From NCBI RefSeq assembly GCF_020085105.1, contig NC_058045.1, positions 13,799,833-13,863,832 of the forward strand: DNA of 64,000 nt, in the 5' to 3' direction. The notes below the pieces were generated by a model. It did not search any database. It was not told the DNA's origin and saw only the letters and a list, made by a program, of their open reading frames with translations. The translations under genes and the position numbers were made by a program. This document shows positions 863 through 63,383 of this stretch, piece by piece; positions within the stretch are counted from its first letter, which is position 1, and the number at the start of each line of letters is the position of its first letter. The DNA is from Siniperca chuatsi. Its lineage: Eukaryota; Chordata; Actinopteri; Centrarchiformes; Sinipercidae.

Positions 863-3800
863 ATGGGGGAAATCATCTTGCCACGGCGCATGTTCCTCTG
901 GTGCATGGCGGTCATCTATCTGGCTGCCTTTGTTTCCCTCTATATGCAGATACCAGGTGAGACTCACTCGGCTGCCTGTGTGGAAGCTAGCTCACTTAAC
1001 TTACTAACGTTACTGATGCGTGTAGCGTTATGTGTTAGCATGTTAGCTGGAAACTTGGCCCTCCGTCTTCCTGCGCTTTTCCTGCTGTCATGGAAGTTTC
1101 TGTGGGCTGCGGTCATAATGGTTTACCTGCTCCTGGCTAACTTTACAAGCTAACAGCCGCTGAGAGAGACCCAACCTGTTGTAAATACGCACACTAATGT
1201 GTTGTACTACAGTACCCAGAAACCCTCTGTTTGTTTGTTTTTATCAGTTGAGGACGCTTCATTTTAGTAGCCCAGCAGAAGTCCAGAAGACGTGGCCCAC
1301 GCCCATGAGTTAAAAGAAATGCCAACATAATTTTCGAGTGCATCGCATTCTCACTTCATTTAAAGCCATTCCAGAAATGTATTTGCAACATTTTTAAACT
1401 GTCTGCAATTGTGAATGAATGGATTTTGAAATGAAGGACATAGAGTATAAATGCAATCACAGAAACTCGATCACATCAAACTATGAAGTATACTTTGTCT
1501 TCCCATGTGTTGTACACACATTGAAATACATGTTGAAATACATTACATTTAAAATGTTGGTCCGGTATTTATTCTTTATATGAGGCTGCTTAACTACAGG
1601 CATTTCTAGCTGGTCTGTGCCAGGTGCTCATTGATCCTGATGATAGTCTATAGTACTGTTAGATCCACTGACAGATACAGACAGAAAACCTGAATAAATG
1701 CATGGAGAAACATAACAAATGCAGATGCTTGCATACAGTGCACAAGGAATCTCCAGTGGTTTGATGTATACAAATTATATGAATCATAGGCACCTTTCTA
1801 AGACGCTTTATGTTGTTGCTTCCCATGTTTATGTCTATTTCTAGGTCTCTATGGTAATGAGGGGTTGTTGCCTGCTCGCTGGCAGCTGCGGTACAGCGGT
1901 AAGCCTCTAGGGGAACAGCTGCTGTCCTCTCCCACCCTGCTGTGGCTGGGACCTCATCTCGGCTTGGACACGCAAACCGCTATGGAGCTGCTGTGTCTTA
2001 TAGGGGCAGTGCTGAGCCTCGCCGCCTTGCTGGTGGAGGCGCTGAGAGACAGCATGGTGTATTTCTGCCTCTGGGCCTTGTACCTGTCCATGTATCAAGT
2101 GAGTTTACAGTGTCCACTGTACACAGTTTTCCTTCACAGGCTGCCGTAGTTGCTGTCATGGTGTCCCCTCCTCTCACTGGCCATTTTTGTTTCTTGTTTC
2201 AGGTGGGCCAGGTTTTTCTCTACTTCCAGTGGTGAGTGATGATTTGTAGATTTGTGGATCTTTATGTTTTATTAACACAACAGTGCTATAAATATCAGCT
2301 GGTTATAGGATCCCGAGATGGTTTTGGCGGTTTGCTGATATGTTTGTCATCCTCGGTCCACTGTTTGTAACATCGTAGTAATGTTTGTCTCTGCTGCTGT
2401 GCAACAACACTGTAGACCTCACTAAATTAGAATGGCAACCTTGGTTCCCTTGTCCTCTCTGTCTGTCTCTTACTTGCCACTCTTTCATTGTTTCTTGTTG
2501 CTCTTTCTACTTATTACTGTCCAGGGACAACTTGCTTCTGGAGACGGGATTCCTCTGTATCCTTGTTGCTCCACTGACATTAATCAGAGGGTCACGAGGG
2601 GTCAGAGAGCATGATGGTGTGACCTTCTGGCTGATCCGCTGGTTGCTCTTCAGGCTCATGTTTGCCTCTGGTGTGGTGAAACTCACGTCACGTTGTCCCA
2701 CATGGTGGGGCCTTACAGGTGTGTATGAGTGTCCGTATGGAGGATGTTCTTTGTGTCCCTTTTATTCTGTTTGTACACTACAAGACAATCTCAAATTGCA
2801 ATAATTTGTAAGTAAGGATGCAAATTGGTTGCAGATGTGTCTTTTAATATGTGCAAAAGCAAAGAGAGAGGACATTGCTACAATTTGAAAGCTGCTATTT
2901 GACTGTTTTTATATTTCCTTTTGTCAGTGAACTATCAGGATCTCGTCTATTTTTCTTGTTTCATTTGATTAAATTTCTTTTCCACTGTGTGTCGAACAGC
3001 TCTGACATATCACTATGAGACTCAGTGTATCCCCACCCCACCAGCCTGGTTTGCTCACCAGTTGCCAGTGTGGTGGCAGAAGCTGAGTGTGGTGGGGACC
3101 TTCGTTATAGAGATCGCTGCACCCCTGCTTTTCTTCAGCCCACTGCGCAGACTCCGGCTTGGGGCTTTTTACTTGCAGGTGGGTAGAAATTCAAGTGCTC
3201 TGTAAAGTTTCTAAATTTCTTTTTACCTTTGCTCAGTGACTGGGGTGTGTTTTGTGTTAACTTTGAATGTTAGCAATCACCTTTGGGTTCATTTACGTTT
3301 CTTAATGCACGGTTAACTTCAGGGTTGTACAGTTGTTAATTCTTAGAAGTTGCACTACTAACTTTCCTCCCAAACTGGCTCTGAAATCTACAATTGGCAA
3401 GCATTGTGCTTAGTAACAAAATAAATAAAATAAAATTTCACTCCTCAAATACCTACCTGGTTTTGTGCAGCAGAAGAAATTATTGGTAATTTTGTTTTGT
3501 TTGTTTTTTTTCTTGTGTAGGTGTTGCTTCAAGTGCTCATCATTTTGACTGGAAACTACAATTTCTTCAACCTGCTGACTTTGACCCTCTGTACGTCTCT
3601 TCTGGACAACCAGCATGTACACTTCTGGCTACGCAAGGCAGACAAGATCAGCAACAATGGTATTATAAACATAACTGCTGAATACATATGCAGTCTACAC
3701 ACATTTGTAAAGTGTAGGAAAATAAGGAAAAACAGTATCACTCTCCCCAGGTCTTAAAGTTTAGGATTTGCTTAAATAATGAAGTATGCATGTAAAAGTT

Positions 3801-6800
3801 CAGATACACATTTAATGCTATAGGTTCAGTGTTGTTTCACAGACATTAATTTTGTCATATGCTGTCATCAGCATACGTCACCATATTAAACACCCACTAT
3901 CACCTACAAAATCAATAAACACACTGTGATTGGGAAAAGTTTGCCATTTTTAAACCTACAGAGGGACACACAGTGAAAGCTTGAAATTGGACCTGAGTGA
4001 TGTTGCCATAGTTTTCTTACTAGAGCATCATCATGCTCTCTCTCTGTTCTGGTCAGACTCCAAGCTGTGTTCGTGTCTGTGTTACATGCTGGAGCTGGCA
4101 GTCTGGTCTCTCATGATCTTCGGAACAATTGTATGCTTTGACCTACAGTTGGATACAACGAAGAGCGTCATCACCTCACGGACAGGTGTGTGTGTGTGTG
4201 AGAGAGAGCGAGAGAGAGAGAAAATAGAATATAAACAATTTAATTTTGCAGTTTGTTTACATTTTTGTCCTTGCAGCATTCACATACCACCAGCTTAACC
4301 AATTTCTGAAGACTGTCACTATCCCCTGTATCTGGATTGGTGTTCTCTCTCTCACCTGGGAGATAGTCACAGCCATGTTCAGGTAGGACTCTATCTGTCT
4401 ATCTATTTGTGTGTCTTTGTGCTTGATTATGTAGTTTTGTTGCATTTTCTGTATTGCATGTTGGTGAGGTACCTCTTTATAGAAAATGTGTTAGTGTGCA
4501 GCGGAAGGACAAAAATAACGTATGTATTGTTTCTCTAGATGTGCGTGTGTCTCTGGTTTCCTGAAGAGGTTTTGTGGAACTGTCCAGTGGACTGTGTTTG
4601 CTGCTGCCACCGCTGCTATGTTCACTATTAGTCTGGTGTGTGCTGTTGGAAATGCAGTAATGGTTGAATTTCATATCATGAAGCTAATGTGTCATGCAGT
4701 TGAACATCATAATTGATCAGCGATATTTCTTCAAACCTGGTTGCTGTCACTCTTTATGTTGGCGCAAGTCAAACTATCAGTGTTTACCATCCCTGATCAT
4801 ATTTTCCCACTTCATCCATCGTTATTATTTCTAATTTCTCATTGCCACAATTTCACCAAAATACTTTCTCTGATGTCATCACTTTCTGACTATGTTCTTC
4901 TGTTCCAGGTGCCATTCACCTACATAGAGTTTGACTCTAATGCCAGGTTGTGGCCTGGAGTACATCGGGCCTATGAGCTGGTGGATCGCTACCAGCTGGT
5001 CAACTCATATGGCCTGTTCAGAAGGATGACCGGGGTCAGTGGGCGGCCAGAGGTTGTCATCGAGGGAAGCAGCGATGGAGTCGTGTGGACCGTGAGAGAA
5101 AAAAGATATCATAGACGATGGGATTAACTGTTATGTTTATGATGACAGGACTGCACAGCTAATTTTATTGAAGCATGCTGTATAAGGTGGTCCTAGTTTG
5201 CACAACCTGTAACTATACAACAATACCATGAAGGAAGTATTATAACAATTCAATTAAGTAAGTAAGTTATTCATATCAGTATATTTCTTCTATTTTCTTC
5301 TAGGAGATTGAGTTTATGTATAAGCCAGGCAACCTAAGTGCACCTCCTCCTGTGGTGACACCTCACCAGCCCAGGTTGGACTGGCAAATGTGGTTTGCTG
5401 CCCTCGGGGCTCATACACAGGCTCCATGGTTCACCAGCCTCATATACCGACTGCTGCAGGGCAAAAGAGATGGTACGCACCCTCAGAGTGCTACAGTTTA
5501 TTTTTTTGCTGCATCTCCTGTCAGTCTTTGATCTCCCTAAAGGACAATTCAACACAGAATCAAATGGAGCAGAAAACTGGCACTGCTCTGCTTTTTTTTT
5601 TTTTTTTTTTTTTGATGGATTAAAACTTTCAAGGACGCTGCACTTCTTGACACACACAAACAGTGATGTCAGAGCAGGCGTTTAGCCATTGTCAGCTTAT
5701 TGACAAGGCCTCCTGTGACGTCACTAATTAGGTTGTGATAAGAAGTGAATCTAGCCCTGGATCATTGCAGCTGTGCTCACACTAATGCACGGTCATGAAC
5801 AGTTTAAATAGCTGCTTCTCACTAAAAGCCTGTATGTGTAGGATTTGAAAACTTATCTTTGGTGACCCCAAAATTATTATTGGTATTATTAAGAGAGAGA
5901 ATGTTGCAGACACCAACGCGTGCACTGCTGCACCATCTTTACTTTGATGAATAACGAAAACATAATAACAATAATTAATGTTAACTCTTAATAAAGTTTT
6001 CCAGCAGCAATTCACAGTATCTTGGACCACAGCTACAGGTACTTTTAAAAGTTTTAACCCACAGAGCACAGTGCAGAAAATGTTCTCTACCCTAAATGAT
6101 TCAGTGTGAAATTACCATTGAAAACATTGTAAGAACAAGCAGATCTCTGAAAGCTTTGTTGTATGTTCTGCAGTGATAGAGTTGATCCAGACAGATGTAT
6201 CTCAGTATCCATTCCACCAGCAGCCTCCTGCCTACCTCCGAGCCCACCGCTACAGATACTGGTTTACTGAACCAAAGGCTGACGGGTCAGTGGTCTCTCT
6301 TTCTCCCTCTGTCTCAGTGTGTTTACATGATTATTCTTGGCTTTGAGGTAACCTGTGTGTGCTGAAAGATGTCACCCAACACACTTTGGAACGTTACGGC
6401 CAAATTCAAACTCAATAAACTGCCACTAACATGATTTATAACATGTTTCAGCATTTTTAAGTTCACTTAATTTTCCCTGTGCAAAGATGCGTCATCAAAA
6501 CATTAATGGAAAAAATGTATATATTAAAGTATATTCTATATTATGTGAAAGGCACAAAGGGTTTGACTGTATTGTACTTAATTCATTGTTATACACTGTC
6601 TGCAACTTTCCTGCTTGTCTGGATGTTGCCGTCCTGGCCTGTTTATTAGAAAATTAGAAGTAACCTTAAATGCACACAAACGACAGGATATTTACTGTTT
6701 GGTCTTTGTTGGCAGTTCTTACCCACAGCGTTGGTGGAGGAGGGTCTATGATGAGGAATTCTATCCCACAGTGCACCTGGGCAACACCTTCCTGGAGAGC

Positions 6801-13794: not shown

Positions 13795-14165
13795 TTTAAG
13801 TGTTTAAAATGTTGTATAAAGCCTTTTGAAGGAGCTGCGTGAAGTCTAATAAATTACCTCAAGTGATGTCAGTGTCGGTTGGAGCTGAAGACTACAAGTT
13901 TGAGAATGAAAAAATCTGGGGGAGTGGAGTTAGAAAAAAGTGAGGTTACCGGACCTCTGTAGCCCCCTCCTCATCTCATGCATGAGGCTAGCAGCTCGAG
14001 GATACATTAGACTGAAGCACACCTGAAGCTCACTCAGAACTGTCGTGGACAAGTTGCATTGTGGGTAATGAAGGCACCAGGTTTTGACAAGGAAGAAAAA
14101 CGTGTGGAATAAAAAACGATGACATCTCTGGTTGTGCTCCACAGATTTCAGTTTATTTGTCATGG
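13795..14165 (+). repeat. Dispersed repeat, copy 1 of an inverted pair
   Basis: This segment is recognisably the reverse complement of about 29300-29665. Shared landmarks in order are TTGTATAAAGCCTTTTG, AAGTGATGTCA, GCTGAAGACTACAA, GGAGTTAGAAA, ACCTCTGTAGCC, TGCATTGTGGGTAATG and AGGTTTTGACAAGGAAGAA. Both copies have drifted. It is non-coding and belongs to a teleost interspersed repeat whose family I cannot fix. Confidence 0.7.
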
Positions 14166-28311: not shown

Positions 28312-31300
28312 TCAGCCTTGCTGTCGCAGAGCTGTGATGAGGTCCTGCAGCGGCTCAATGTCCTCCGGCTCCAACAGGGCGTGCTGCCGGCAGAAGAGTG
28401 TGAGGTGTGTGAAGAGTGTGTTGAGGTGTGGGTGCAGACCCAGCGCAAGAGTCTCTCTATAGTGAGACCAGTAAATGTGAGCCAGAGTCCTGAAAAACAG
28501 CAAAAACACCTTCTGGACCAGAAAGATGAAGCCTGTTGGAAACATTGAACCTGGAAAAGAGGGAAGAGATAATGGCTTTGGGAATGTGATGCACAACAAC
28601 GCAACATAAATAAAATGCCTTTTACCTGTTTTTGTGGGGAACACATCTTCGTCAGTCAGTAGCTCCTGAATGTATGACATGGCATAGTCAAAGTAAAGTG
28701 GAGCAGAGCACTTCAGCTTCCTGCCGTGGTCATCGGTCCAAACATAAACCCTAACAACACCAACACACGGCCATTAAGACAACATGCTATGTGTTCAGTT
28801 ATCAAGGAAATAACAGAAACTATGTTTAATGTTTTGGAAAGCATAAATATTATATCACTCTAGGGTCACCTGAATAAACCCCATCTGCTGATACAGACTT
28901 TCAGATGCAACTGAAAGCTCTGTTTAAAACTAGGATGTGTTTCCATAGTCAGAAATTAACTTTCACTATCATGACTCAAGTTTAGCTATTATTTGAACAA
29001 ACATTGCACAGGTGATATTTAAAAAAATATCCATTTCTGTTTTAAAATTGTTGTCAAACCAGGAGATAATTAATGATGATCACTTTATTCCTGTGCATTT
29101 CAAATGCAGTGCTGCTGCAAAAATTATTTCTAAATTTTATCTTAAAGGGTCAGTTCACCCACGTCATAAAAAAATGGTGAGGCTTTTAGATCTCAAGCCT
29201 CGAGAAACTTCTGCCTCCGTCCCATTCACCGATTTATCAATGTACTTTTATAACATTGCCAAACTCACAATTTAAAAAAAGTCAAATACAGCAGAACCAG
29301 AGATTTTGTCTTTTTTATTCCACGCTTTCTTCTTCCTTGTCAAAACCTGGCGACTACATTACCCACAATGCCACGCGACTGCCAACAGGTCAGTTGGAGA
29401 TTTGAGTGTGTTATGCTAGTAGCAGCTAATGTAGCCTCAAGCCTCTAACCTCAAGCAGAGATGAAGAGCGGGCTACAGAGGTCTGGTAAGCTCACTTCTT
29501 TCTAACTCCACACCACCAGATTTTTTTCATTATTAAATTTGTAGTCTTCAGCCCCAACCGCCGCTGACTCAAGTGACATCACTTCAGGGAATTTATCAGA
29601 TCCCTCTGGAGCCACAAAAGGCTTTATACAAGTTGTTTTCCCCCACATATACGTTAGTACTCCCCAAGACCTAAAAGGCTTTGTAAAATTGGTGGAGTTC
29701 CCCTTTTAAAGGTTATATTGATTACATTAACATTTTTATGTAGACAAATATTTAAAAAAAATAATACATCCACAGAACTTTTAGAAAGGTGCAGAATAAA
29801 AGTATCACTTTTCCTAAAAAAAAAATTCTGATTGTGAATTAATCATTTAAAACATTTTGACGGGCCCAAAATTAATGTTTTGTTTGGTTCCTGCTTCTAA
29901 CAAGGCTTGTGAGCCAATAGTATAACAGCGTTGGTATCACATGGTATAGCTGCCAGTTAGTGTGGAAAAAACACTGACGTTAGCACATATTAGCTATCTT
30001 AGCTTAATCGTCCGAACAACAATAAACCAATAAAATTACACTTCTGCATATTTAAACAAAATAAACAACAACTACCGACAGTCATAGTCCTTAAAACCTT
30101 AATTAATGTGGTGTCACCGGTTAGATTGTCAAAATTAGAAAAATAACAGCTTCAATTTCTGAGGAGCTACGTTAGCATTAGTGACGGTTGTGCCTTGTTA
30201 CCTAACTTTATAGTTCCCTCAAAAAATGTAACGTTATAACAAAGATGTGTATCAGAGGGGATTTAGAAGTGGGCCAGGGTCCGACATAACTGATGGCCTG
30301 GGGCCAGTACAGTTTGTCTGTCACTGGTTTGTCTGGGCCGGTGGCGGACTGGTCTGCTTAGGAAAAGACGGTCACTCTTCTTTAAAAAAGGAGTGGATGT
30401 GGGATCCCAATATATTACCAGTGTGACACGTCGAAGATAAATTAAAGTTCAGAGATACTGTAAATCTGCTCACTATGCAGTTAAGATCCAAAACGTGACT
30501 GTTATTGAGGGTGCCATCTCATATAGCAGTTTAACGTTAGCCCTATTATGAGACACTTCGCTGAGGCACTAGCTAGCCATGTAGCCAGCTGCGTTGAGCT
30601 TAACAGCTACGGTACTCACGTTAATATAAAAATCTCAAAATACTGACATGATCATACAGTCGTCCTTTCTCCCTGTAGCCATTGTTGCTGTGTAGTGCAC
30701 TACTACGCTAACAGTAACGCTAGCTAACGTCAACTTTTACTGTAGCTGTCTGTCTAATGTCGAGCGCTGTGAGTTTTAATAGCATCCCTACAATGTACTG
30801 TACTGTACTATTTGATTGGATTAAAATGTAAATATTTACCTACTGTCTTATAGTGTAAGGATGATTGAAATGTCATTTTACGGTAAGTGTTGCAATATAG
30901 GTCCTATTATTTTTAAATGATGGGAAAAAAAGGGTTACCTAAAGCTTGCTAGCCATATCCTAAGATTACCATAGATGACGTTACATGAAACACCACCGCA
31001 CAAAGTAACCTAAATCTATAGCTAATGTATGTTGCAAAATTAATTAATTACTCTATCACGAAAGATTCATCACTTGATATGAGTCTCACTCCACTCAGCC
31101 ATGAAATATGCAGTTTGTACAGCGAACCACTGGAATGGAATGAAAGGGGGGAGAGGGAGTGCGTCATCTAGTGGCTGGATGTTATCAATGTTCTCAATAG
31201 CACCTTTAACAATGGAGGTGAATACTATTTCATTTGTGCTGCCCAAAGCATCGAAAAAACTACCATTGGAGAAATTCAACAGACATTTGTCTTTCCAGAA

Positions 31301-54970: not shown

Positions 54971-55799
54971 CGATGTCATTTACAGTGCCGTTACGCGGTG
55001 GTTGGCCTGCCGAGCGGCTGTGTTGACACTGTGCAAATTATAATTCAGCAGGCAGGCAACAAAAAATCTGTCAGATTTGAAAATCAAAATGGCGGATACC
55101 TAAAACGTAATCAAAAGTTCGGCTGTCCATCAACTGTGTACCGACTCTGTTTATTTGCTGTCACCCTGAAAATTGCTGGCAGGAGCTGGGTGATCCGGCA
55201 TCAAGTAACGTTACTGCAGTAAAATGTGATATTCAGATTCATAACTCTTAAACAAAACCTTCCTGTGTAAGAAAAGTAAACTCCCTTTAATTTTCTAACT
55301 GTGGTAAAGAAGATGCAACAAAATTAATTTAAAACAAATTATTTCAGTATTACAAGAAATTGCTTTGGTCTCTGGCTATGGACACCTGACAGTGTTTAGG
55401 GACTGTCGTTCTCTTTCTTTTTTGAAAAGATTTTTTTTAGTGAAAGATGCTCAATTTACAGTGTCATTGCAATGTGTAAGATACATAAACATCCATTCGT
55501 GCATGGGAAAATATATTTAAAGAAATGAAAAGAACAAATACACATATGTATACAGATACACGCAAATGTATTTGTAGTAAAAAGGATACATAAACTTAAT
55601 ATAGTATAATGTATAGTATAATGACATATACTGTATAACATATTACTAATAATAAACCTAACCTGTTGTAGTGGTAATGAATGAAAACAGTAAATATTAT
55701 ATAAAAGAACAATATTATTAACAAAAAAAATATTAAATAAAATAAAAAATAAAGTAAATAAATATACATACATGTCAGATTGAGGTTCATGGTTTTGTA

Positions 55800-55811
55800 C
55801 TGTATTGTCCA
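55800..55811 (+). repeat. Left target-site duplication of the Penelope-like element
   Basis: CTGTATTGTCCA here is repeated exactly at 57973-57984, immediately outside both ends of the element. One further base (A) also matches. Confidence 0.85.
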
Positions 55812-57972
55812 ATCGTAGAAAAGGTTTCAGTCGTAGTCATCTGGACACTGTTTTCAGAATCAAGACGTTTCGGCTCCCATCCGGAAGTCATTCTCAATTG
55901 TGAAAAAATTGGACGGGAACTGGAAATTCCCTGCCTTCAGGAGGGAATCTGCCTGAGTATCTGTTAATAGCTAGTTTCACCTTGGTCCTTTGCTGCAAGG
56001 TGGAGTCCTCCTGCAGTCTTCTCATCACCGCTGTCACTGCTTCTGAGGTTGGGATGCAAGTGAACAAGGTGGTTGTGTCGACACAACCACATATCAAAAA
56101 CTTAAAAGCGATCCAACCAATGGCTACAAGAAGAAGGTTATAGACTGTCTACAGAAGCTTGAGAAGGAGGAGGTGATAGACAGGCCTCTGTACTACAGAC
56201 TATACCCTGGGGAAGCCATTCCCTGCATCTATGGCCTTCCCAAAATTCATAAAGAGAATATTCCACTCAGACCCATCGTTTGCAGCACAGATTCCATCAC
56301 ATACAACTTAGCCAAACATTTGACTACAATCTTGGCTCCGTTGGTGGGGAACACAGTACATCATGTGGAAAACACACAGAAATTTGTGGACAAAGTGAAA
56401 CATCTCCAGTTGGACCCAGATGACGTTATGGTTTCTTATGATGTAGTGTTCTTGTTCATTTGCATCCCAACCTCAGAAGCAGTGACAGCGGTGATGAGAA
56501 GACTGCAGGAGGACTCCACCTTGCAGCAAAGGACCAAGCTTACACCTGAACACATATGTAAACTATTAGACATCTGTCTCAACACAACCTACTTCCAATT
56601 CCGGGGACACTTCTACAGACAGATTCACGGCTGTGCTATGGGCTCTCCGGTCTCTCCCATTGTGGCCTGTACATGGAACAGTTTGAGAAGAAGGCATTAT
56701 CCTCGTTCTCGGGCACACCACCAAGTCATTGGTACTGTTACGTGGATGACACCTTTGTGAAAATCAAGAAACAAGACTTGGAAGCGTTCTCAGAGCATAT
56801 TAATACGGTGGACCCCAACATCAAGTTCACGCGTGAGGATGCGAAAGAGAACCGCTTGGCCTTTCTTGATTGTTCTACTCTCAGAGGAGAGGACGGAAAG
56901 CTCCAGATAGAAGTGTACAGGAAACCAACACATACGGATCAATACCTGCCCTTTGACTCACATCATCCACTACAGCACAAGCTGGGTGTAATCCGGACAT
57001 TACAACACAGAGCGAAAGAAGTGCCCTAAGGCTCAGAGGGTAAGAAGAAAGAGGAAAGGCATGTCCAGAATGCACTCTCAGCCTGTGGTTATCCTACTTG
57101 GGCTATCAACAAAGAGCCAAAAAACAGGACAAAAGTGTAACTGAACCAAGAAGGAACGGTGTCTCCATTCCTTCTGTATCTGGACTGTCTGAAAAACTAC
57201 AAAGGATCTTTAGACAGCACGATGTTCCTGTCTTCTTTAAACCAGGCAGCACTTTAAGACAGAAACTCGTTCACCCTAAGGACAAGTTACCCACACAGAA
57301 ACAGAGCAATGTTGTCTACTCCATTCAGTGCAGTGAGGAAAACTGCAAAGAACGGTACATAGGCGAAACCAAACAGCCACTTCACAAAAGACTTTATCAG
57401 CACAGACGACACGCTAACTCAGGATTACAGAGCGCCGTGCATTTGCATTTAAAAGCTACAAACCACACATTTGAAGACAGCGAGGTGAAGATTCTTAGTA
57501 GAGAGAAGAGTTGGTTTGAACGGGGCGTCAAGGAAGCCATTTTTGTGAAGAAAGAGAACCCCTCTTTGAACAGAAATGGTGGTCTGAGATTTAATCTGCC
57601 CAAAGTCTATCAGAGTGTATTATCACCTTGGTCACGCCTATCACATGCTAATCAGGCACTTAACAGTGATGAAGTAGATGCAGCCAGAGAACAATAGGCC
57701 TGATTACTGATTACTGGGCCATCTTGAAACTATTAGGTCAGTTTCAGGTGAAACTAGCTATTAACAGATACTCAGGCAGATTCCCTCCTGAGGGCAGGGC
57801 TTATGTAACTCAGAGTAGCTTAAATTTCCAGTTCCCGTCCAATTTTTTCACAATTGAGAATGACTTCCGGATGGGAGCCGAAACGTCTTGATTCTGAAAA
57901 CAGTGTCCAGATGACTACGACTGAAACCTTTTCTACGATAGAACTCCTGGACGAATGAGGGACTACACCGTC
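55812..57972 (+). mobile_element. Penelope-like retroelement with fold-back 5' end
   Basis: Encodes a Penelope-type reverse transcriptase joined to a GIY-YIG endonuclease. RT motifs in order: YGLPKIHKENIPLRPIVC, DVMVSYDVV, CAMGSPVSP and WYCYVDDTFVKI (active-site YVDD, about 56738-56773). The nuclease (57098-57697) carries VVYSIQ, YIGETKQPLHKRLYQHR and ENPSLNRNGG. Three breaks make it non-functional: a small deletion near 56665, an in-frame stop at 57027-57029 and a frame change near 57115. The outer about 180 bp at the left (55812-55990) is the reverse complement of the right end (about 57755-57943). It is followed by an inverted piece of the RT gene (55981-56066, equivalent to 56453-56538). 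A 12-bp duplication flanks the whole. Confidence 0.93.
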
Positions 57973-57984
57973 CTGTATTGTCCA
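57973..57984 (+). repeat. Right target-site duplication of the Penelope-like element
   Basis: Exact copy of 55800-55811 (CTGTATTGTCCA). Confidence 0.85.
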
Positions 57985-58013
57985 AGTTATACTTATTTGT
58001 GGTCGTGAATAGT

Positions 58014-58036
58014 ATATATATATATATATATATATA
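58014..58036. repeat. (TA)n microsatellite
   Basis: A perfect TA array between the Penelope-like element and the following hAT-like element. Confidence 0.85.
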
Positions 58037-58062
58037 GGTTGCTATAGAAAACTCGTCAATTG

Positions 58063-58357
58063 TAGGGCTGCACAATGAATCGAAATATTATCGAAATCGC
58101 AATATGGCCAAGTGCTATATCCACACAAAACAGCATTATAATGAAGTACTGTAGTGCTGCAGAGATGCCCTGGCCTACAAATCTTGTTCTCCAGATGTAA
58201 GAAAACATGTTTGTTTGGTACAGACCCCCAAAAATGTCACATCAACATTATTTTAATAGTTTTATTAGTGAAAATGAAAATTGCGATGCAAAAATGATTA
58301 TTCCCACTAATCGTGAACCGTGATCAATATGATTTTTTACCATATCGCGCAGCCCTA
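58063..58357 (+). mobile_element. hAT-like MITE with 8-bp duplication
   Basis: The termini TAGGGCTGCAC and GCGCAGCCCTA are inverted repeats with one mismatch. The 8 bp on the left (GTCAATTG, 58055-58062) and right (GTAAATTG, 58358-58365) agree at seven positions, as expected for an aged hAT target duplication. The inside has the ATCGAAATCGCAATATGGCC motif known from an abundant fish family. It is non-coding. Confidence 0.8.
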
Positions 58358-62000: not shown

Positions 62001-63383
62001 TTGTGTTATATCAACAAGCAACATATTTGGGATTTCAATCTAAATCAGGAATTCCGCCGTGATGGCAGTGACCTTCACATGGTCCAACGTATCGGCCTGG
62101 TTGAGGCTCTGTGTGGCTTCCAGTTGACTGTCACTCACCTTGATGGACGCCAGTTGCTTGTCAAATACCCACCTGGCAAGGTCATCGAGCCAGGTAAACA
62201 TATCTTCATACCACATTAATTTTACTTATAATTTTACTTTTAATTACTGCTTTTTTTGTTCTATTATAATGCACAAAAGATGATTGCTCTTAGATTTATT
62301 GTTTACTGCAGCTATTAAAAGCCTCTCCATGTCGGCAGAGCTCCCCTGAAACTCTTAAGGGGCGGTGGTGCAAACTTTTATTTTTGGGACAAAAAAACTG
62401 ATATTTTGGAAAAGCAAGCCACACTGACACTAATGGATTGCAGGCCGATCCACTTATACATGGAATAACATCAGAAATGTTGGTTGCTGTACTAAGCACA
62501 GTGAGAAAAAACATGAGCCAAATTGCTGGTAAATTTTCGATTTGGCAGCTAGATTTACTTTCTCTACCAGCCATTTTTGCAGCTAACATCAGCCATCTTG
62601 TCGTTTATAAATATCTATAATTACCTGGTAAATATTAAATGTGTGTAATACACAATTAACTATGGTTTGTGCACAAAAATATTATATATATTTTTAACCC
62701 ATTTCTTACCTATTTAATGTCTTAGGCAATCACATTCACGTTTTCATGACAGTTAAAACTTGAGGAATTGGAATGTACTAGTAGTTTTCTTATCTTGTGT
62801 GTAAATATATAACAAATCCCAAATAATAGGATTTTAAATTGTTATTGTAGCACATCATAATATGCCAAAAGCAAAGTGGTGTGCATATTTAATATGCACA
62901 CCACTTTGCTTTTGGCATATTATGATAGCAATGTTTTTAATTACCTGACAATTCTGTGGCAGGCTGTATTCGAATGGTGAAGGGAGAGGGAATGCCTCAG
63001 TATAGAAACCCATTTGAGAAGGGAGACCTTTACATCAAGTTTGACGTCCAATTCCCTGAAAACAACTGGATTAGCCCCGAAAAACTAAATGTGAGTCGCA
63101 ATCGTTAAACATCCTGATTTGCACAATTTTAACTCCAGTAAGCTTGAATGACGGTGGTGTCGTGATGTATTAAAAAACAATTCATTTCTTTCAGGAACTA
63201 GAGTGCTTGCTGCCTGCTCGTGCTGAAAATCCTGTTATTGCAGCAGATGCAGAGGAAGTTGACCTGACAGATTTTGACAAGAGTCAAGGGTCAGGAGGTG
63301 GAGCCAGGAGAGAGGCCTACAATGATAGTTCTGATGAGGAAGGGGGCCATCATGGCCCAGGGGTGCAGTGCGCACACCAATAG
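59030..63383 (+). CDS. dnaja2: DnaJ homolog subfamily A member 2, 9 coding exons
   Basis: Type I Hsp40 co-chaperone that stimulates Hsc70/Hsp70 ATPase activity and delivers unfolded clients. Exons: 59030-59107, 60456-60515, 60943-61169, 61256-61336, 61493-61626, 61719-61915, 62049-62193, 62963-63090, 63195-63383. Phases close to exactly 412 residues, the human length. The J domain has HPD at 36-38 ([13 protein letters not shown]). It is followed by a Gly-rich linker ([10 protein letters not shown], then [11 protein letters not shown]) and four zinc-finger repeats ([32 protein letters not shown]). The client-binding C-terminal domain includes [20 protein letters not shown]. The end GPGVQCAHQ keeps the CaaX farnesylation box. 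DNAJA2 signatures such as [18 protein letters not shown] separate it from DNAJA1 and DNAJA4. Intron 7 holds a long palindrome. Confidence 0.98.
59108..60455 (+). other. dnaja2 intron 1, AACGTTA-rich
   Basis: No exon is seen. The first 700 bp carry repeated words GTAACGTTAGC, GAGTTAACGTTT, CTAACGTTACC and TAACGTTAATG, the same vocabulary found upstream of ppp6r2. Confidence 0.5.
62854..62926. repeat. Near-perfect palindrome, 36-bp arms with 1-nt spacer
   Basis: The left arm (62854-62889, starting ATCATAATATGCCAAAAG) is the exact reverse complement of the right arm (62891-62926, ending CTTTTGGCATATTATGAT), with a single T between. It lies in dnaja2 intron 7, about 35 bp before the exon 8 acceptor. 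Transcribed RNA would form a fully paired hairpin. Confidence 0.95.

Follow-up and report, generated by a model that had tools for sequence, protein, structure and literature searches.

The inverted 5' arm of a Penelope-like element (PLE) in the Siniperca chuatsi genome was probably made when both ends of the cut target primed cDNA synthesis, each at its own one of two adjacent start sites on RNA from one source, and the two cDNAs, having stopped at the same template base, were joined. The element occupies positions 55813-57972 of the stretch of DNA analysed here, a window of 64,000 nucleotides (G000:C4:13799833-13863832) in a genome of 718.8 Mb in 65 contigs. It is a dead copy, 5'-truncated and broken in frame, with the RT and GIY-YIG regions of a PLE.

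The initial annotation had already called this element a PLE, and the RT and GIY-YIG regions, the partial tandems and the tail seen across copies confirm that identity. Our reference, E, is an unchanged 2833-nt stretch of the sister copy L010, on which window position 56080 corresponds to E933 and 57972 to E2830. The forward part of the window copy (56080-57972, plus strand) comprises the RT and GIY-YIG regions and the 3' terminus with its tail, and is 97% identical to L010. It contains at least two frame breaks between the RT region and the endonuclease region, and its pieces returned no Pfam match. In L010, Pfam recognized RVT_1 with 35.7 bits (cut-off 29.6) and, downstream of it, GIY-YIG with 28.5 bits (cut-off 22.6); the YIG motif is present in the window copy in frame 57044-57694. 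L010 has a direct terminal repeat of 93 nt, and partial tandems are found in L028 and in L047 with L050. In both of these (L028 at 1309-4831) the forward part continues past the end of one unit into the next, so the template RNA extended over more than a single tandem unit. A search for hammerhead ribozymes with Rfam models, which may miss a divergent one, gave no match up to E 10 in window 55700-58100 or in L010 4950-5300; otherwise Rfam returned one and three chance-level matches, respectively. A scan of viral contigs with the RT piece gave no match, and a sequence search of the PDB with the RT piece of the window copy found nothing up to E 0.1. The endonuclease piece gave a single chance-level PDB match (E 0.93), and the RT of L010 gave seven weak ones, the best of which was a nuclear receptor (E 0.0059), with bacterial RTs from E 0.07; none of these was used.

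A single exact target duplication, CTGTATTGTCCAA, encloses the whole composite, with its left copy at 55800-55812 and its right copy at 57973-57985. The initial annotation was right that one exact duplication surrounds everything, but its length is 13 bp and not 12 bp; the duplication and the element have a base in common at the outer left end (offset 1).

Within this duplication the left 267 bp are inverted and composed of four copied pieces. Read from the outer end, the arm runs through the 3' terminus from about E2795, without the tail and minus 23 nt, followed by E1391-1303 and finally by E943-933. The inverted terminus (55813-55982, minus strand) is the reverse complement of 57746-57938, from which it differs by one substitution and by the absence of the 23 nt at 57800-57822. 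The right end bears a 33-nt tail (57940-57972, plus strand; 35 nt in the reference copy) that the left arm lacks. The left end is thus the reverse complement of the right terminus, as first described, with its extent corrected to 55813-55982, minus 23 nt and minus the tail. The inverted RT-gene piece was likewise correctly recognized, at 55981-56066; we place it at 55981-56069 (minus strand, the reverse complement of 56450-56538), where it overlaps the preceding terminus piece by 2 nt. The last piece, 56069-56079 (minus strand), repeats the forward copy's first 11 nt in inverted orientation, and its first base is common to the preceding piece.

The 23 nt missing from the left arm are present in the forward copy and in all 58 other segments compared, and a pre-existing deleted subfamily was rejected on that ground. 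Splicing as the origin of the internal joints was dropped because neither joint has a GT donor, as judged by eye. Three substitutions separate the arm from the forward copy, at E1303, E1312 and E2648. At E2648 the left arm is the odd one, the forward base being present in 57 of 58 other segments. The other two sites lie in the RT piece, at 56450 and 56459 (LFTC in the arm, LFIC in the forward copy), and at these the forward copy is odd, with the left-arm base found in 30/31 other segments at E1303 and in 31/31 at E1312. Because all 31 other segments have the left-arm base at 56459, it is the forward copy that appears to have changed (LFTC to LFIC), which was one of the two options offered at the outset.

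The inverted arm meets the forward copy, from 56080 on, at a perfect and spacer-free 22-bp palindrome (56069-56090), just as the initial annotation had described. The corresponding motif was found in six of seven sister copies among L002-L008, and in each of the six GACACAACCAC is preceded by another sequence, CTTCTTGAA. Because the six sister stretches have other upstream sequence, the forward copy ends exactly at 56080 (E933), and the left half of the palindrome is therefore its own first 11 nt, inverted without a spacer. The 2833-nt reference E contains no palindrome with 8-nt arms and loops of up to 6 nt. Of 39 copies, three have a tight palindrome (arms of 8 nt or more, loops no longer than 4 nt), always at the head-to-head junction, and the palindrome at the junction is more than chance. 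The window copy has 11-nt arms with a loop of 0, L035 has 17 nt with a loop of 0 and its turn at E1171, and L028 has 20 nt with a 2-nt loop at E2138. Three copies added later (L048, L049 and L047 with L050) have no tight palindrome. Elsewhere in the window, 62854-62926 is a near-perfect 73-bp palindrome (loop 0, 98.6% self-complementary) that is unrelated to the PLE as far as seen and may be a relic of a small palindromic transposon. The window also holds a dispersed repeat pair, 13812-14138 and 29290-29631, in opposite orientation and with 76% identity over 346 columns.

A palindrome that turns exactly at the truncation point is what would be expected if the first cDNA, or an antisense transcript, had folded back at 56080 and copied itself with skips, the right arm thus serving as template for the left. 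The left arm of the window copy does lie within the range of the right arm, and self-priming on an antisense template has been proposed from the palindromic junctions of rotifer PLEs (PMC3846280). We nevertheless consider such folding improbable. The turn has no hairpin loop in the window copy or in L035, and only 2 nt in L028, and the left arm of the window copy stops at the tail-less start site that sister copies use. A DNA hairpin requires a loop, while two cDNAs that stopped at one template end and were joined do not.

The junction of the composite is private to this locus. A 26-nt pattern across the junction, allowed up to two mismatches, has one match in the 718.8-Mb genome, the window copy itself. 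The junction and both internal joints, allowed up to three mismatches, occur in none of 49 other loci, a set in which several loci come from the same copies (L001, being the window copy, was left out of this search). Flanking sequences show no relationship among the 39 copies, apart from a single 99-nt match that links L026 and L038. Because the junction is unique, the 23-nt deletion is absent from the 58 other segments and the copy flanks are otherwise unrelated, we conclude that the composite was very probably made in the insertion of the window copy. This agrees with the initial annotation, which had the inverted piece joined in the insertion event and not later, and to which the single enclosing duplication and sister copies of the same plan with other breakpoints also point; an identical junction in other copies, which it took as the mark of a fixed subfamily structure, was sought genome-wide and not found. 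A single duplication would also surround an existing composite that had been transcribed and inserted whole, but with the junction unique in the genome, neither internal joint in the 49 other loci, the deletion in none of 58 other segments and the flanks unrelated apart from that one match, we regard re-insertion, together with later rearrangement, nested insertion or a fixed subfamily structure, as very improbable.

The plan of the window copy is not exceptional. We compared it with 38 others (L009-L046), a selected sample of best matches from a large family (the best 40 scored of 2885 candidates), and found 28 of the 39 to be head-to-head and 11 single-orientation. An exact duplication of at least 11 bp surrounds the whole composite in 23 of the 28 head-to-head copies; L040 has an 8-bp duplication, and four (L015, L035, L042 and L046) have none. 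Duplications of at least 11 bp were found in 4 of the 11 single-orientation copies, and 13 bp is the commonest length (11 of the 27 copies with a duplication of at least 11 bp). The inner breakpoints vary from copy to copy. Of 29 head-to-head joints, 17 are spacer-free, and overlaps of at least 3 nt at five of these 17 suggest microhomology joining. One single-orientation copy, L021 (4710-6101), is complex: an inverted 54-nt piece (E2074-2127) lies between forward pieces, and the examined stretch stops inside the copy.

The outer ends of the head-to-head copies follow a rule. In all 25 copies that could be classified, one outer end lies near E2830, with the tail, and the other near E2795, without it; if the ends were chosen independently at their observed frequencies, the probability of 25/25 would be 3e-8. 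Outside this count are L027, with an odd outer end at E2762, L035 and L042, each with one internal outer end, and the 11 single-orientation copies, L021 among them, which have seven tailed and four tail-less ends. A second look with a query that contains the tail (the best 40 scored of 2443 candidates) gave 24 additional copies, of which three were examined, picked for a visible inverted partner: L048, L049 and L047 with L050. All three have one end of each kind, and L048 and L049 are flanked by 15-bp duplications. L047 with L050 had at first seemed to have a tail at both ends, but proved to be tailed at one and tail-less at the other once its tandem unit was followed to the end. Among the 24 additional copies, a 37-nt inverted piece (G000:C14:811610-811646) adjoins the tailed copy C14:811684-812358. 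We do not claim a stem-loop around the two start sites, since the predicted RNA fold is no better than that of shuffled sequences (z 1.28; 181 of 200 shuffles at least as good).

The lengths and inner ends of the arms bear further on whether one arm was copied from the other. Of the 25 copies, 13 have the longer arm on the tail-less side and 12 on the tailed side, so that in general neither arm can have been copied from the other. In 18 two-piece copies the inner ends are far apart and uncorrelated, with a rank correlation of 0.10 when L022 is entered in first-unit coordinates (8 and 113, a distance of 105); the inverted arm of L022 lies in the following unit (8 = E2745), and the true distance between its inner ends is large. 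These observations count against folding back of the first cDNA, which also leaves the pairing of one tailed with one tail-less end in 25/25 copies unexplained. Self-priming would fit the window copy taken by itself only if a loop-free turn is allowed, but it fits the longer tail-less arms in 13/25 copies poorly and is disfavoured.

The two arms of a copy usually have a common source. Twelve sites are variable in three arms or more; at these, pairing the two arms of one copy gave 7 differences in 192 comparisons, and pairing arms of different copies gave 5107 in 18289. The differences within a copy come from L028, L043 and L046; at the three sites that are informative in the window copy its arms agree. 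On the strength of these shared variants, both arms would usually derive either from a single RNA or from separate RNAs of the same source copy.

Two-end priming, the reading that we favour, would account for the window copy as follows. The GIY-YIG PLE would cut the target in a staggered manner, leaving 3' overhangs, and both 3' ends would prime on the element RNA. The right end would start at the distal site (57972, with the tail) and copy the RNA up to 56080. The left end would start at the proximal site (about 57938, tail-less), copy the 3' terminus with a skip of 23 nt, jump on the RNA into the RT gene (56538 to 56450) and then to 56090, and stop at 56080. Both cDNA 3' ends would thus have halted at one and the same base of the template; the simplest candidate for it is the 5' end of a broken RNA. 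Joining of the cDNA ends end to end would produce the spacer-free palindrome, and the target overhangs would become the 13-bp duplication. The common variants argue for a single source; that a single RNA molecule served both ends, and the order of these events, we infer. Counting against two-end priming are the four of 28 head-to-head copies that lack a duplication, the 8 bp of L040, the internal outer ends of L035 and L042 and the one odd outer end of L027.

In L1 twin priming an inverted 5' segment is made during integration and is enclosed by the target duplication. The window copy shares these features, but its inverted arm has a defined start site, at the element's 3' terminus, and covers part of the same sequence as the forward copy. 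A strictly L1-like route, in which the second strand primes within the one RNA close to where the first cDNA ended, would fit L035 (2218-3916) and L042 (2032-3424), in which an inverted piece spans the truncation point and a terminal inverted arm is absent; no target duplication was found around either. In L025, L042, L043 and L044 one arm ends with a piece that overlaps the 5' end of its partner; in the window copy, L025, L043 and L044 the last piece lies at the partner's 5' end, which again resembles L1. Since the left arm of the window copy starts at the 3' terminus, both kinds of terminal start are present in 25 of the 28 head-to-head copies, and the two L1-like copies lack a detectable duplication, we think this route quite unlikely here. 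The initial annotation had proposed a snap-back or a twin-priming-like template switch. The former is not supported as a general mechanism, given the mixed ends and the longer tail-less arms; the latter comes nearer, yet what the data suggest is that both target ends primed at the element's own two 3' start sites and that template jumps followed.

A close biochemical parallel is the Poseidon element of Anolis carolinensis (PAc), whose protein cuts and extends both target strands in vitro, and in which two adjacent start sites bound the tail (PMC11167929). PAc thus resembles the present element in its RT and GIY-YIG domains, in a tail between two adjacent start sites and in the cutting and extension of both strands. 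It differs in that single extension reactions were described: the steps after the first extension, including the meeting of two cDNAs, are left open in the available part of that work, which also reports no difference in start site between the strands in vitro, a result that counts against two-end priming. A further point of difference is that the hammerhead search came out negative for the present element. Inverted terminal repeats with a tail optional on one, palindromic junctions and short duplications have been described for PLEs (PMC3846280; PMC8969392). The Adineta vaga Penelope with inverted pLTRs is likewise a GIY-YIG PLE with an inverted terminal repeat upstream of the forward copy, an optional tail, palindromes and short target duplications; self-priming on an antisense template is preferred there (PMC3846280), whereas here end usage and arm lengths favour two cDNAs. 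The accessible part of a 2026 paper on Drosophila virilis (PMC12910113) holds nothing further on insertion features of inverted-repeat PLEs. Among the titles and abstract openings listed in literature searches, which leave most subscription papers outside, there was no paper on PLE integration for Penelope with twin priming and no statement of the one-tail rule, and we claim no priority for it.

For PLEs more widely, we tentatively propose concerted two-strand integration in which both cut ends prime on one RNA molecule. Start sites 35 nt apart would be mutually exclusive primer seats, giving one tailed and one tail-less end, and two RTs running off the same broken 5' end would leave a spacer-free palindrome; we hold this broader model to be plausible but somewhat short of an even chance. 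The window copy itself is a known kind of PLE insertion, unusually readable. The end rule seen in its sisters is of greater interest: every one of the 28 classifiable two-armed copies pairs a tailed end with a tail-less one, a rule that self-priming does not predict.
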